Shown: piece by piece, positions 25,473-30,996 of the stretch
How positions within the stretch are numbered: position 1 is the stretch's first letter
How the letters are laid out: every line of letters starts with the position of its first letter
Assembly (NCBI GenBank): GCA_017994935.1
Contig: JAGOJU010000004.1
Coordinates: forward strand, 1 to 64,000
Direction: 5' to 3'
DNA from: Opitutaceae bacterium
GTDB lineage: Bacteria > Verrucomicrobiota > Verrucomicrobiia > Opitutales > Opitutaceae
DNA: 64,000 bases
Notes under the pieces: model-generated
Databases searched by the model: none
The model's input: only the letters and a program-made list of their open reading frames with translations
Told to the model about the DNA's origin: nothing
Made by a program: the position numbers and the translations under genes

Positions 25473-25972
25473 GGATTGTTTTGTCCCCCGATTGGAAAAT
25501 GAGCGCTGGGTGACCTTCGGGACAGGCGCTGTTCGTTGGTGGAGAGATGAGCCTCGGCAAAGGCATTTATGGAATCCCCCACATAGGTTTGGCGCACTTG
25601 GAAACATGGACGACGGAATTCCGCCGAGCCCGTGGGTTGATTTCACAAAAGATACCGGCAAATAGCGACTTGCGGATGTCAGTTTCCATGAAGAAGCCGG
25701 AAGGGATGCTGTAAGAATAGTGGCTGGTTGAAACGCGGGAAGAAGCGGCGATGCAATTCACAGTCAATTAGTTTTGCAAAGAGCGAGTTCGGATCGAATT
25801 TCGCGTATTCTTGGAACCTCGTCGACTAAGTTGGGTTGTGTGGAGTGACAAAGCGATTGCCTTCTGCTTCCGATATATTTTTGATTAGGCGCCTAACTAT
25901 TCATGGCAACTCGCGCTCGCTGGAGCGCGGATGCCATGGATGCCGTGACGACTGATTGCCACCGTGACCACC
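25473..25972. promoter_or_regulatory. AT-richer intergenic region upstream of the WPF-repeat/Mla operon
   Basis: About 500 bases divergent between rsmD and the WPF-repeat gene. The part from 25740 to 25900 is noticeably AT-richer than its surroundings. It contains a perfect 12-bp palindrome TTAGGCGCCTAA (25885-25896) that could be an operator. The promoter of the operon is expected here, but I cannot define a clean -35/-10 pair. Confidence 0.35.
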
Positions 25973-27523
25973 ATGAACCGTCCGCCCTTCCCTGCCGTCT
26001 GCCGGCACGCTGCAGCGTGGGCTCTTGCCGCGTTGTTCGGTGGGGTACTCTTTCAGGAACTGCGGGGCGGAGAAGTGAATGTCTGGCCGTTTTATGTGGG
26101 ACAGTATTCCGACAACAACACGACGAACGCGGAATCGTGGATGGCCGCGGGACCGCTCTTCTTTCTTTTCCCGCAGCCGTCGGAGGATGTGCCCGGTGGC
26201 AGGGACCTTGTGGGCGGGATTCGACCCTTTTACATGAGCAGGAGGGCACCCAACGGGGACCTGAAGGAGGCGCACGGATTGTATCCGTTTTTTACGTACA
26301 GGAGCGGCCTGGCCGGCTCGCGCCGCTGGAGTTTCCTCAGCCTGATCAATCTCAGCACATCACCGGCTGTCGGCGGCAACGGAGCCGGCTCGCCATCGGC
26401 GGTGCCTTACCGGGCATTGGATGTCTGGCCGTTTTATTTCTCGCGGCGCACGGGCAACGAGTCCCTTGACTACCAGGCCTTTTTCCCGATCGCCGGGGAA
26501 GTGAAGGAGCGCTTCGGCCAGGACCGCATGGCGTGGGTCCTGTTTCCGCTCTACGGACGCTTCGAGAAGAGGGGTGTCACCACGATGACAACGCCCTGGC
26601 CCTTCATCAAGTCGGTGAGTGGCGATGGAAATTCGGGATTCGAGGTCTGGCCGCTCTTTGGCGGGCGGCAGAAACCGGGAGTCTACCGGGAGCGGTTTGT
26701 GCTGTGGCCGTTTTATTATCACAACCAGTCCGGACTGGAGAAGCCGCAGCCCGATGAAAAGCTTGGCATCCTGCCGTTCTACGCGCGAGACAGCAGCGAA
26801 GGATATCGAAGCGAAACCTGGCTGTGGCCATTTTTTGGATACGTCGATCGGACCGCGCCCTATCGTTATCACGCGCGCAACTATTTCTGGCCGCTCTTCG
26901 TGCAGGGTCGGGGAGAGGGACGCACGGTGAACCGCTGGGCGCCCTTTTACACGAGATCGGTGATCAAGGGCGTCGACAAGGAATGGGTTCTCTGGCCGCT
27001 CTGGAGACGGCTCTCCGTCCGCGAAGGCGAGGTGGACCAGACGAAGACCCAGTTCTTCTATTTCCTCTACAATGCGACCGAACAAAGGAGCGTGAAGAAT
27101 CCCTCCGCCGCTTCCGCGTTCAAGGCGCACCTCTGGCCGCTGGCTTCGGTGTGGGACAACGGGGCCGGCAGGCGCCAGGTCCAGGTGCTGAGCCCGCTGG
27201 AGGTGTTCCTGCCCCAAAACCGGCAAACGCGCATCGTCTGGTCACCGCTGTTTGCGCTGTACCGCTACGATCATCAGCCTGACGGGGAAGTGCGGCATTC
27301 GTTCTTGTGGGATGGGATCACGTATCACGGCGAACCTGCAAAACAGGCGAGTGAATTCAACATCGGACCCTTGTATTCCGACACCCGGACAGCCGGGAGC
27401 CGGCGTGTCTCGCTGCTGTTCGGTCTATTCGGTTTCAAGCGCGATTCCGATCGCGGCTGGCGGCCGTTTGTTGGTGAATTCAACTCCGCAAGAACGCGGC
27501 GGGCACCCGCCACCGAACCATGA
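25973..27523 (+). CDS. WPF-repeat secreted protein, probable outer-membrane component linked to the Mla operon
   Basis: This 516-residue protein starts at the ATG at 25973 with a signal-like N-terminus (HAAAWALAALFGGVLFQEL). The rest is built from about 18 short repeats, each centred on a W/x-P-F/L-aromatic core. Examples are VWPFYVG, IRPFYMS, LYPFFTY, VWPFYFS, LFPLYGR, VWPLFGG, LWPFYYH, LWPFFGY, FWPLFVQ and LWPLWRR. Repeats are spaced some 20-45 residues apart with basic and acidic turns between. The alternating aromatic pattern suggests a beta-rich, possibly barrel or sheet structure. Its stop overlaps the ATG of mlaE (ATGA at 27520), so it is translated together with the lipid-transport genes. 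I know of no established function. Confidence 0.75.
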   Translation: MNRPPFPAVCRHAAAWALAALFGGVLFQELRGGEVNVWPFYVGQYSDNNTTNAESWMAAGPLFFLFPQPSEDVPGGRDLVGGIRPFYMSRRAPNGDLKEAHGLYPFFTYRSGLAGSRRWSFLSLINLSTSPAVGGNGAGSPSAVPYRALDVWPFYFSRRTGNESLDYQAFFPIAGEVKERFGQDRMAWVLFPLYGRFEKRGVTTMTTPWPFIKSVSGDGNSGFEVWPLFGGRQKPGVYRERFVLWPFYYHNQSGLEKPQPDEKLGILPFYARDSSEGYRSETWLWPFFGYVDRTAPYRYHARNYFWPLFVQGRGEGRTVNRWAPFYTRSVIKGVDKEWVLWPLWRRLSVREGEVDQTKTQFFYFLYNATEQRSVKNPSAASAFKAHLWPLASVWDNGAGRRQVQVLSPLEVFLPQNRQTRIVWSPLFALYRYDHQPDGEVRHSFLWDGITYHGEPAKQASEFNIGPLYSDTRTAGSRRVSLLFGLFGFKRDSDRGWRPFVGEFNSARTRRAPATEP

Positions 27524-28272
27524 AACGCATCACCGACCTCCTCGAATCCCTGGGCAGCGCCCTCCTGCTCGCAGGGAAGGCCTTTGTCTCACTGCCGGCC
27601 GCCCCTCGCATCCTCAAGCGCGTCGCGGAGCAGGGATACCTTGTCGGGTACACGACGCTGCCGATCGTTGCGATCCTCTGCTTTTTCATCGGTGCGGTCC
27701 TTGCCCTTCAGGCCGGCATCACGCTGCGTGATTTCGGGGCGAAGCAGCTGATCGGGACGCTGGTTGGCGAGTCGATGGCCCGCGAACTGGGACCCGTGAT
27801 GGTGGCGATTCTTCTCGCCGGCAGGGTGGGATCGGCGGTGACCGCTGAACTGGCTTCGATGAAGGTCTCGGGTGAGATTGATGCGCTTGTCACGATGAAC
27901 ATCCCTCCGGCCCGGTTGCTCGTCCTGCCCCGCCTGCTCGCCGTGCTTCTCGTCATGCCCCTGCTCACGATGATGGGCAACATCATCGGCTGGTTTGGAG
28001 GCGCGATTGTCAGTGCGCAGGTGAAGATGATCGGGGTGCCTACGGAAATGTATTTCCAGAATCTGAAGCAGTATCTGTCCGTGGGGGATGTGATGGATGG
28101 CCTGATCAAGGCAGAGATCTTCGGTTTTACGATCATGCTCATTGCCTGCACCACGGGGCTGCGAACGCGGGGAGGTCCGCGTGAGATCGGATTCGCGGTG
28201 ACCAAGTCGGTCGTGTTTTCACTCATCGCCATCCTCACGCTGGACTACTTCATCACCAAGGCCCTGTCATGA
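27520..28272 (+). CDS. mlaE: MlaE-family ABC transporter permease
   Basis: This 250-residue inner-membrane permease carries the MlaE (DUF140) features. They are GAVLALQAGITLRDFGAKQLIGTLVGESMARELGPVM, then AGRVGSAVTAELASMKVSGEIDAL, and several hydrophobic helices. In the family the permease works with MlaF (ATPase) and MlaD (periplasmic MCE protein) to move phospholipids between the inner and outer membranes. It overlaps the genes on both sides by 4 bases (ATGA). No MlaB-type STAS gene follows. Confidence 0.93.
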   Translation: MKRITDLLESLGSALLLAGKAFVSLPAAPRILKRVAEQGYLVGYTTLPIVAILCFFIGAVLALQAGITLRDFGAKQLIGTLVGESMARELGPVMVAILLAGRVGSAVTAELASMKVSGEIDALVTMNIPPARLLVLPRLLAVLLVMPLLTMMGNIIGWFGGAIVSAQVKMIGVPTEMYFQNLKQYLSVGDVMDGLIKAEIFGFTIMLIACTTGLRTRGGPREIGFAVTKSVVFSLIAILTLDYFITKALS

Positions 28273-29129
28273 GCACGCCATCTCCTTCACCATCGTCTGC
28301 GCACCGGGGCGGCAGGATTCAAAAACCGCGGCGGCCCGTGCTCGTGCGTGACGACCGCAATGCCGTTCGCGTCGATGTGGAAAAACTGTCGAAGTCGTAT
28401 GGAAGCCAGCAGGTCCTTGTCGACGTCAGTGTCGATGTGAAGCCCGGCGAGATCTTCACGATCATGGGACCGAGCGGATCTGGAAAGAGCGTGCTCCTCC
28501 GGCACATCGCGGGACTGGAGGCTCCGACCTCGGGCACGGTGAAGATCAACGGGCATGACCCCATTCTGCCGGAGACACGGGATCGATTTGCGGTCGCCCT
28601 GGTCTTCCAGAGCGGCGCGCTTTTCAATTCGCAGAGCGTGTATGACAATCTTGCGCTCTATCCGCTCGAGCATCGGCTCTGCCCCAAGCCCGAGATCCGC
28701 GACCGGGTGATGCGTGCGCTGAAAATCCTCTCGATCGAAAATGCAGCCCACAAGTTCCCGTCGGAATTGTCCGGCGGCATGAAGAAGCGGGTTGCCATTG
28801 CCCGCGCGCTGGTGATGGAGCCGCAGCTGATACTTTATGACGAACCGACCAGCGAACTCGATCCGCTGATGAGCGCGACGATTGCGGAGATCATTGCCAC
28901 GCTGAAGGAGGAGATCTCCGTCACCACGGTGGTGGTTTCGCATGACCGCGCCCTGGCGCTGACGATTTCCGACCGTGTCGCGCTGGTGCATCAGGGCCGC
29001 CTGCGGGCCGTGGAGAAACCGGAAGGCCTGAGGAACAGCGCCGATCCGGTGGTAAAAGCCTTTCTCAATCCTGAAATCGACATCAGGAATCCCCGTTTCA
29101 AGCAACTGGAGACCGTAAACCATGACTAA
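28269..29129 (+). CDS. mlaF: MlaF-family ABC transporter ATP-binding protein
   Basis: This 286-residue ATPase has Walker A GPSGSGKS, signature LSGGMKKRVAIARAL, Walker B LILYDEPTSELDP and an H-loop in VVVSHDRAL. LSGGM in place of LSGGQ is typical for MlaF. The N-terminal 30 residues are basic and extra to the ATPase fold. It powers the MlaE permease. It overlaps mlaE by 4 bases and mlaD by 8 bases. Confidence 0.95.
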   Translation: MSTPSPSPSSAHRGGRIQKPRRPVLVRDDRNAVRVDVEKLSKSYGSQQVLVDVSVDVKPGEIFTIMGPSGSGKSVLLRHIAGLEAPTSGTVKINGHDPILPETRDRFAVALVFQSGALFNSQSVYDNLALYPLEHRLCPKPEIRDRVMRALKILSIENAAHKFPSELSGGMKKRVAIARALVMEPQLILYDEPTSELDPLMSATIAEIIATLKEEISVTTVVVSHDRALALTISDRVALVHQGRLRAVEKPEGLRNSADPVVKAFLNPEIDIRNPRFKQLETVNHD

Positions 29130-30117
29130 CGCACAAATGTCGGCCCGTGTGGGCCTGTTTTTCATCCTCGGGGTCGCCCTGATCTGGGTGACCTTTGAAG
29201 CGCTCACAACCGGGCAGGTGCGGCGCGACCGTGGGTATCGCCTGATCGCCCATTTTACCAATCTCAAGGAGCTCAAGGCCGGCGACGAAGTGCGCATGGC
29301 CGGAGTGAAGGTCGGCGCCGTTGCCGAGACGCGGCTTGCGAGCAGGCAGGCCGAGGCGGTGCTCCTGATCAATCCCAAGGTCCAGATTGCGCAGGACTCC
29401 GTCGCGACCATTGCGATGGCCGGCCTGCTCGGGGCGAATTACGTGTCGCTGGACATCGGCACCGCGGGCAGCGGCTATCTGCAGGCCGAGAATCAGATCC
29501 GCACCGTGGACACGCCCGATTTGAACGCGATCGTTTCGCAGATTGGAGATATCGGTAAGAAGCTCGACGGGGCACTCAGCCAGATCACGGGTGCGTTGAA
29601 CGGTGGAGGGAAGGAGGGACCCGGTTTGATCGGCAAACTCGACAAGCTCGTCGACGAGAACAGCGCGAAGATCGGGCAGATCACCAATGACCTCAGGGAC
29701 ATCACGAACAAGGTGAACACCGGCCAGGGCACGCTCGGCAAGCTGGTGAACGACACCGCGGCATATGATTCGCTCGTGGCGGCGCTGGGCGACATCCGCG
29801 GTGCCGCGACGGATGCAAAGACGTTCATCACGAACACGCAGGGCATCATCGATCAGGTGAAGAGCGGCAAGGGAACCCTTGGCACGCTCATCTATGACGA
29901 GGAAGCGGCCAGGAACATCAAGGTGGTGAGCAACAATCTGCGCATCCTTTCGGAAAAACTCACCACCGGCGAAGGCACCTTGGGGAAACTCATCAACGAC
30001 GACAGCCTGTTCAAGGAGGCGCAGGGGGTCATGCGCAAGGTCGACCGTGCGGTCGACGGCCTTTCAGACCAAGGGCCGATTACGGCGGTGGGTGTGGTGG
30101 CCAACGCCCTGTTCTGA
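29122..30117 (+). CDS. mlaD: MCE-domain (MlaD-type) periplasmic lipid-binding protein
   Basis: This 331-residue protein has one N-terminal membrane helix (VGLFFILGVALIWVTFEAL), an MCE domain (residues about 38-115, with GDEVRMAGVKVGAV) and a long helical C-terminal region. The C-terminus holds three GxGTLGxLxxD repeats (GQGTLGKLVND, GKGTLGTLIYD, GEGTLGKLIND). These are seen in longer MlaD-like proteins of several phyla. It should form a periplasmic ring that hands lipid to or from the MlaE/MlaF complex. It is the last gene of the WPF-mla operon; a small hairpin (GCCCC/GGGGC, 30137-30152) follows. Confidence 0.92.
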   Translation: MTNAQMSARVGLFFILGVALIWVTFEALTTGQVRRDRGYRLIAHFTNLKELKAGDEVRMAGVKVGAVAETRLASRQAEAVLLINPKVQIAQDSVATIAMAGLLGANYVSLDIGTAGSGYLQAENQIRTVDTPDLNAIVSQIGDIGKKLDGALSQITGALNGGGKEGPGLIGKLDKLVDENSAKIGQITNDLRDITNKVNTGQGTLGKLVNDTAAYDSLVAALGDIRGAATDAKTFITNTQGIIDQVKSGKGTLGTLIYDEEAARNIKVVSNNLRILSEKLTTGEGTLGKLINDDSLFKEAQGVMRKVDRAVDGLSDQGPITAVGVVANALF

Positions 30118-30219: not shown

Positions 30220-30996
30220 ATGGATCGCGTGTTGATTGTCAAATGGGACTGCCTTTACGCCCGCTTCCTTTCGGAGGCGGTGCACGAATTTTATCCGGGC
30301 GCATTCACGGAGACTGTCTTTACCTCCGAGGCGGCGCGTCAATGCCTTGCGCGGCATAGCTATGATCTCGTGATTGCCGGGCTCAGTTTCTCCGATGGCG
30401 ATGGGCTGCCGTTGCTCAATTCGATGGCTCAGGCGAGCGGTGTTCATGGATTGCTGCTGGTCACGTTGCGCAAGGATGCGGAGATGCTGGCGCTGCTTCG
30501 GCAATTCCGGCGCATATCCGTCTTCGATCCCGTGCGGGATGCGCCGGAACGGTTTGCATTGGCGCTTGCCCATGTGGCCCAGGATCGCCGGTACCTGAGC
30601 CCGGCGTTTCACGAGTTGCTGATGAGCAGTGACGGCGCTCATCATCTGCTCTATGCGCAGATGACGGATACGGAGCGCATGGTGCTTTCCGTTATCGGTG
30701 ACGGATCGGACGACAAGAGTGCGGGCGAGCGGCTCGGCCTGGAGCCAGCCAGTGTTCATGCGCATCGCAAGCGGCTGATGAGAAAGCTCGGCGTGCAGAC
30801 AAGGGACATGCTTTTTCGTCGAGCGCTGGAGTTGGGCATTGTGCGCATTCTGCCCGACGGACGCACCGCGCGCCCGAGTTTCGATGTCCTGAAGCCACAG
30901 ATCGAGTCGCGAAAACGCCAGTTGGCTACGCGTCGTTCGATGTCCTGCAAACTGCGCAAGGACGCGGTCATGCTTGCGGCGGAGGCCGGTGCGTAG
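30220..30996 (+). CDS. LuxR/NarL-type regulator with a degenerate receiver domain
   Basis: This 258-residue protein has a receiver-like N-terminus (about residues 1-120) and a GerE-type helix-turn-helix (about 145-210). The latter is MTDTERMVLSVIGDGSDDKS, followed by ASVHAHRKRLMRKLG. In the receiver, the position of the phosphorylated Asp (pattern DLVxxDL) reads DLVIAGL, with Gly at residue 54. The acidic pair after VLIV is replaced by Lys-Trp. So it cannot be controlled by ordinary phosphotransfer. The C-terminal 45 residues are basic and extra. No kinase gene is adjacent. Target genes are unknown. Confidence 0.85.
   Translation: MDRVLIVKWDCLYARFLSEAVHEFYPGAFTETVFTSEAARQCLARHSYDLVIAGLSFSDGDGLPLLNSMAQASGVHGLLLVTLRKDAEMLALLRQFRRISVFDPVRDAPERFALALAHVAQDRRYLSPAFHELLMSSDGAHHLLYAQMTDTERMVLSVIGDGSDDKSAGERLGLEPASVHAHRKRLMRKLGVQTRDMLFRRALELGIVRILPDGRTARPSFDVLKPQIESRKRQLATRRSMSCKLRKDAVMLAAEAGA

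Follow-up and report, generated by a model that had tools for sequence, protein, structure and literature searches.

The mlaE, mlaF and mlaD genes of an Opitutaceae genome are preceded, in the 64,000-nucleotide stretch of DNA analysed here (the window), by a gene encoding a secreted protein with W-P-F/L turns, called here WPF. In a computational analysis, we found that the coupling of wpf to the mla genes is phylum-wide in Verrucomicrobiota and that WPF and MlaA largely exclude each other. From these results we consider it fairly likely that wpf-mlaEFD constitutes a second, MlaA- and MlaC-independent Mla-type system, in which WPF acts as the partner on the periplasm or outer-membrane side and does the job of both MlaA and MlaC. 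WPF is thus probably the missing link for lipid movement between the two membranes. MlaEF is an ABC pump that works with a ring of the MCE protein MlaD in the inner membrane. In the Mla system of E. coli, MlaA extracts lipid from the outer membrane and MlaC shuttles it, and the question addressed here is how Mla-type pumps without MlaA and MlaC reach the outer membrane. The proposal builds on the linkage, the exclusion, the operon types and the export signal, which are observed, and on a fold that is predicted.

The features of the operon, all on the forward (+) strand of the window, are the following:

25973..27523, +, wpf gene, 516-aa secreted WPF-turn protein (open reading frame, homologues and AlphaFold2 model)
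25973..26071, +, signal-peptide-like N terminus, WPF residues 1-33 (model helix 6-26)
26072..27472, +, predicted β-meander of about 44 short strands with x-P-F/L turns, WPF residues 34-500 (DSSP on models; fold matches)
27520..27523, +, ATGA stop/start overlap of wpf and mlaE (sequence)
27520..28272, +, mlaE permease, 250 aa (PF02405, E 9.5e-72; TIGR00056 over its cut-off)
28269..29129, +, mlaF ATPase, 286 aa (PF00005 (ABC_tran), E 2.2e-33; operon position)
29122..30117, +, mlaD, long form, 331 aa, transmembrane segment, MCE domain and C-terminal extension (PF02470, E 3.5e-16)
29230-29454, +, MCE domain of MlaD, residues 37-111 (PF02470, single domain)

Positions 25973-30117 thus hold four co-directional overlapping genes in the order wpf-mlaE-mlaF-mlaD. 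The ATGA overlap of wpf with mlaE and the further overlaps reported in the first-pass annotation were borne out, the mlaE/mlaF overlap being again ATGA (28269-28272) and the mlaF/mlaD overlap 8 bp long (29122-29129). The start codon of wpf is ATG, with an alternative in-frame GTG at 25964. Since rsmD lies upstream on the opposite strand, wpf is the first gene of the transcription unit. A scan for sigma-70 promoters found nothing, and terminator-like hits (9 against 4.4 expected) were all inside genes, none at the end of the operon. With MlaE, an MlaF-type ATPase and a single-MCE MlaD present, the operon falls within the MlaEFD class in the broad sense. MlaF is assigned by domain and position only, as it scores 169 bits against the cut-off of 441 of the equivalog NF008809. 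The 89.9 bits of MlaD are likewise below the cut-off of 135 of the short-MlaD equivalog TIGR04430, and its C-terminal extension comprises 220 residues with GxGTLGxL repeats. It should also be noted that an open reading frame recognised by eye as response-regulator/LuxR-like (window 30220-30996) lies 102 bp downstream of mlaD.

The first-pass annotation described the first gene product as secreted and made of about 18 W-P-F/L repeats. The repeats and the export signal, a signal-like hydrophobic segment at the N terminus, are confirmed, but the number of repeats is nearer 20: the protein contains 20 x-P-[FLI] sites, of which 9 are W-P-[hydrophobic], whereas 1000 composition-preserving shuffles average 0.8 of the latter and never exceed 5. 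Of 63 relatives, 48 have an AxA motif within their first 45 residues. No consistent lipobox and no conserved cysteine were seen in these 63 sequences, and the window protein has no lipobox. WPF has zero matches in Pfam, NCBIfam and the PDB sequences, the latter searched with a profile; in particular, it is unmatched by PF03886 (PqiC/ABC_trans_aux) and by the MORN models of Pfam, and neither WPF nor any of 22 aligned relatives is matched by PF04333 (MlaA). None of the libraries searched has a name for the WPF family, which is previously undescribed. The very long open frames of some homologues (1128-1152 aa) at first suggested fusions, but the excess is an unannotated stop-to-stop upstream extension without Pfam match. 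Three loci (L131, L133 and L134, in G284, G211 and G079) carry one in-frame stop inside the matched WPF stretch and are possible pseudogenes or frame errors.

The distribution of WPF was determined within Verrucomicrobiota, with viral contigs and plasmids searched in addition. WPF was detected in 55 of 95 related genomes, the protein and profile searches giving the same number, and by profile in 116 of 288 genomes of the phylum, sampled as one genome per species. The phylum search also recovered WPF in many families outside the class, with E values of about 1e-20 to 1e-44, and the sequence search of viral contigs and plasmids recovered no relatives. As most of the genomes are metagenome assemblies, single absences are weak and the pattern rests on many genomes. 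In all of 30 family and genus loci, mlaE lies directly 3' of wpf, and mlaEFD is directly downstream in 80/80 named Opitutales loci. The gap between wpf and mlaE in these 80 loci has a median of +1 bp, with a 4-bp overlap in 34 and an overlap or a distance within 10 bp in 72. In other classes, mlaE, mlaF and mlaD come next after 18 of 20 distant homologues, those in G269 and G195 being the two exceptions, and the same holds for all of 8 further loci. Counting how often homologues precede mlaE, as the first-pass annotation had advised, therefore gives the answer nearly always, and homologues situated mostly away from mla genes were not what we found. The rare WPF homologues without an adjoining mlaE were seen in G195 and G269 (L193:11500-14883, L194:7951-9612, L195:5526-6965).

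Among named genomes, the closest relatives of the source genome (G000; 4.1 Mb, 171 contigs, 89.9% complete) are Opitutales metagenome genomes. The source genome contains no MlaA (PF04333) and no MlaC (PF05494) in this assembly, so that the earlier remark that no MlaA is recognisable holds genome-wide at that completeness. Across the 288 genomes of the phylum, MlaE was found in 267, MlaA (PF04333) in 113 and MlaC in 30, 29 of the latter also having MlaA. WPF and MlaA occur together in only 12 genomes compared to 45.5 expected (Fisher p 8e-18, a value made too small by the kinship of the genomes). The same exclusion is seen in the family of the source genome (at the Opitutaceae level), where, of 61 genomes, 41 carry WPF without MlaA and 15 MlaA without WPF, while 4 carry the two together and 1 lacks them both (Fisher p 8e-10); thus 56/61 have exactly one of the two. 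Two genomes assigned to one genus, G012 and G060, are of opposite types. Four of the 12 double-positive genomes, from family f43, carry stand-alone MlaA-like proteins of ~700 aa, and the one scanned is a fusion of MlaA with an α/β-hydrolase; such fusions inflate the MlaA counts in some families and were treated separately. When the surroundings of MlaA were read in genomes that have both proteins (G001, G002, G009, G032, G183, G251 and G283), MlaA was found in its own mlaE-F-D-C-A operon, and WPF was never found inside any MlaA or MlaC operon. Two results qualify the exclusion. At least 10 genomes keep both systems, hence these are not fully interchangeable, and 71/288 genomes have neither WPF nor MlaA, most of them still with MlaE. 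MlaEFD with a long MlaD that has no barrel apparently can work without either protein. Both results count against our preferred explanation, and the second against any indispensable role of WPF.

In a genome of the same class, the MlaD encoded by mlaEFD has 264 aa and the surroundings contain no WPF or MlaA (L210:5469-7806); a third arrangement may exist. At L199:5660-7870, an MlaA domain and an α/β-hydrolase form one protein of ~737 aa, away from mla genes. Open frames of comparable size with an MlaA match recur in dozens of genomes from other classes of the phylum.

The two proteins belong to operons of different composition. MlaA operons have the order mlaE-mlaF-mlaD-mlaC-mlaA, and their MlaD is short, with a median of 162 aa (n=18). 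In WPF operons, wpf-mlaE-mlaF-mlaD, the MlaD is long, with a median of 343 aa (n=65), and mlaC and mlaA are absent. A maximum-likelihood tree built from 74 MlaE proteins separates the MlaA-linked from the WPF-linked sequences, with the former making up one side of a branch (97/92). WPF distances further track those of MlaD, MlaF and MlaE (partial r 0.50, 0.46 and 0.31, respectively), beyond the neighbours RsmD and RsmE, and 0 of 2000 permutations gave a WPF-Mla correlation as strong. The separate operon types and MlaE branches indicate two Mla-type systems, each with its own set of partners. The proposal of the first-pass annotation that WPF replaces MlaA is accordingly retained as regards the exclusion and dropped as regards a one-gene swap, since the whole operon is exchanged, WPF being accompanied by a long MlaD and by an MlaEF lineage of its own. 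Because the MlaA type brings a short MlaD together with MlaC, WPF would take the place of both MlaA and MlaC. These distinct MlaE lineages, and the genomes that retain both systems, are also compatible with a system that carries another lipid (a hopanoid, an LPS precursor or a glycolipid) or that exports, the exclusion of MlaA then reflecting lifestyle and not a shared function. We regard this as improbable, for exactly one system in 56/61 Opitutaceae genomes and opposite types in one genus are what one shared job would be expected to give. It should be noted that many Opitutales genomes encode a short MlaD of about 160 aa alongside MlaC and MlaA (L177:4741-6577, L216-L235), for which horizontal transfer is possible; short MlaD is described as restricted to Proteobacteria (PMC10665443), unlike these cases.

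The structure of WPF was predicted with AlphaFold2 from 63 sequences (pLDDT 90.7, pTM 0.79; 93.9 pLDDT for the N-terminal half modelled alone). In the model, a signal helix leads into about 44 strands, each 4-8 residues long; this is an extended β-fold behind a signal peptide and not a soluble cytoplasmic fold, in answer to the earlier suggestion to look for a barrel or an extended sheet. For both parts of the protein, the best solved fold matches are single-layer antiparallel sheets (CPAP G-box, MORN1, OspA, junctophilin) with Z of 8-11. The CPAP G-box matches the C-terminal part with Z 10.8 and rmsd 4.3 Å over 151 residues; for the N-terminal part Z reaches 11.1 with rmsd mostly of 9-12 Å, as for a flexible or differently curved sheet. 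WPF is thus predicted to be a single-layer antiparallel β-meander and not a barrel. That it is instead a divergent outer-membrane β-barrel or porin serving as docking site for MlaD appears highly improbable: the protein is all-β, aromatic-rich and secreted, and VDAC, OmpU and LptD do match the model, but weakly (Z 5-6, far below the single-layer sheets; rmsd about 8-29 Å, mostly near 20), and predicted strands of 4-8 residues are too short. In the model, tight G-containing turns alternate with W-P-F/L turns, which would place the aromatic motifs along one edge of a ribbon, as read from the predicted strand positions. In agreement with this edge assignment, only neighbouring strands covary in 123 aligned sequences (about 105 effective). 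A kinked topology of long strands pairing n with n+3 was rejected on the same covariation, which points to the meander, although nearness in sequence favours this result too. A hydrophobic groove on one strand face is not supported either, as two-sidedness is no stronger than in shuffled sequences; the hydrophobic residues concentrate at the turns.

The E. coli, or Proteobacterial, system (MlaFEDB-MlaC-MlaA) likewise has an MlaE permease, an MlaF ATPase and the MCE protein MlaD in one operon. By contrast, the source genome as assembled has neither MlaA nor MlaC, its MlaD is about twice as long and wpf is an extra first gene, without sequence kinship to any Mla protein. Of the six-component features, the wpf-mlaEFD operon thus lacks MlaA, MlaC and the short MlaD. 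The minimal MlaEFD of Veillonella parvula also combines a long MlaD with the absence of MlaA and MlaC (PMC10665443). Its MlaD ends in an outer-membrane β-barrel and has been proposed to form a bridge, whereas the operon in the window has a separate all-β secreted protein before mlaE. According to the same study (PMC10665443), MlaEFD systems more often have a long MlaD, and the C-terminal barrel is completely absent from PVC MlaD, long though it is; the study allows for 'as yet unidentified proteins'. This absence, together with the position, export signal and exclusion pattern of WPF, leads us to take WPF as the partner on the periplasm or outer-membrane side.

The main rival explanation is that the long MlaD bridges the periplasm alone, as proposed for Veillonella, with WPF in an accessory role that involves no lipid contact, as a brace, assembly factor or anchor to peptidoglycan or the outer membrane. 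A long MlaD without MlaA and MlaC is indeed the common bacterial type (PMC10665443), related genomes hold MlaEFD without WPF (e.g. L210), and single-layer β-sheets, MORN among them, mostly serve as scaffolds, the lipid binding of MORN being questioned in PMC7725318. We grant this explanation a real if minor chance. The near-invariant coupling and the exclusion of MlaA are more in keeping with a core component than with an optional brace, and a PVC MlaD devoid of the C-terminal barrel (PMC10665443) leaves contact with the outer membrane unaccounted for.

If WPF is the partner of the pump as we propose, it would be exported through its signal peptide, and its predicted fold would make it a single-layer antiparallel β-ribbon, long and narrow, with the W-P-F/L turns forming an aromatic edge on one side. 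The inner-membrane pump consists of MlaEF together with the MCE ring that the long MlaD provides, as established for these families. We infer that the ribbon may dock on the MlaD extension and reach towards the outer membrane, where its aromatic edge could contact the bilayer and pass phospholipids to or from MlaD; by analogy, the direction would be retrograde. Against this explanation, the predicted strands are too short for a membrane-spanning barrel, no lipid anchor was seen and the strand faces give no support to a hydrophobic groove. A sheet of ~44 strands would measure about 200 Å if fully extended, by simple arithmetic. That WPF is a transenvelope β-ribbon bridging MlaD to the outer membrane and conducting phospholipids along its aromatic W-P-F edge is a more specific idea that we regard as rather doubtful. 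If true, the ribbon would be a bridge-type conduit unlike the MlaA/MlaC shuttle, the MlaD barrel, the MCE needles or the AsmA/TamB grooves. As a conserved protein open to genetic tests, WPF is a candidate for the missing part across a large section of the phylum, and the WPF and MlaA types offer a natural contrast, sometimes inside one genus.

The CPAP G-box/TCP10, MORN1, OspA and junctophilin share with WPF the predicted one-layer meander of short antiparallel strands; the likeness to MORN1 is one of predicted fold only, no sequence relation to any of them was found, and the x-P-F/L turns are peculiar to WPF. To our knowledge, none of these single-layer β-sheet proteins serves an MCE transporter. 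PqiABC/LetAB-type MCE systems likewise encode an MCE protein and its own outer-membrane-side partner in one operon, but this partner is a PF03886 lipoprotein, a domain and an anchor that WPF does not display. A second MCE operon was observed in the source genome (G000:C162, L191:10066-13742), comprising MlaE, an ATPase, an MCE protein and a PqiC-like ABC_trans_aux lipoprotein (PF03886); its MlaE has 377 aa with a long N-terminal extension that looks STAS-like by eye.
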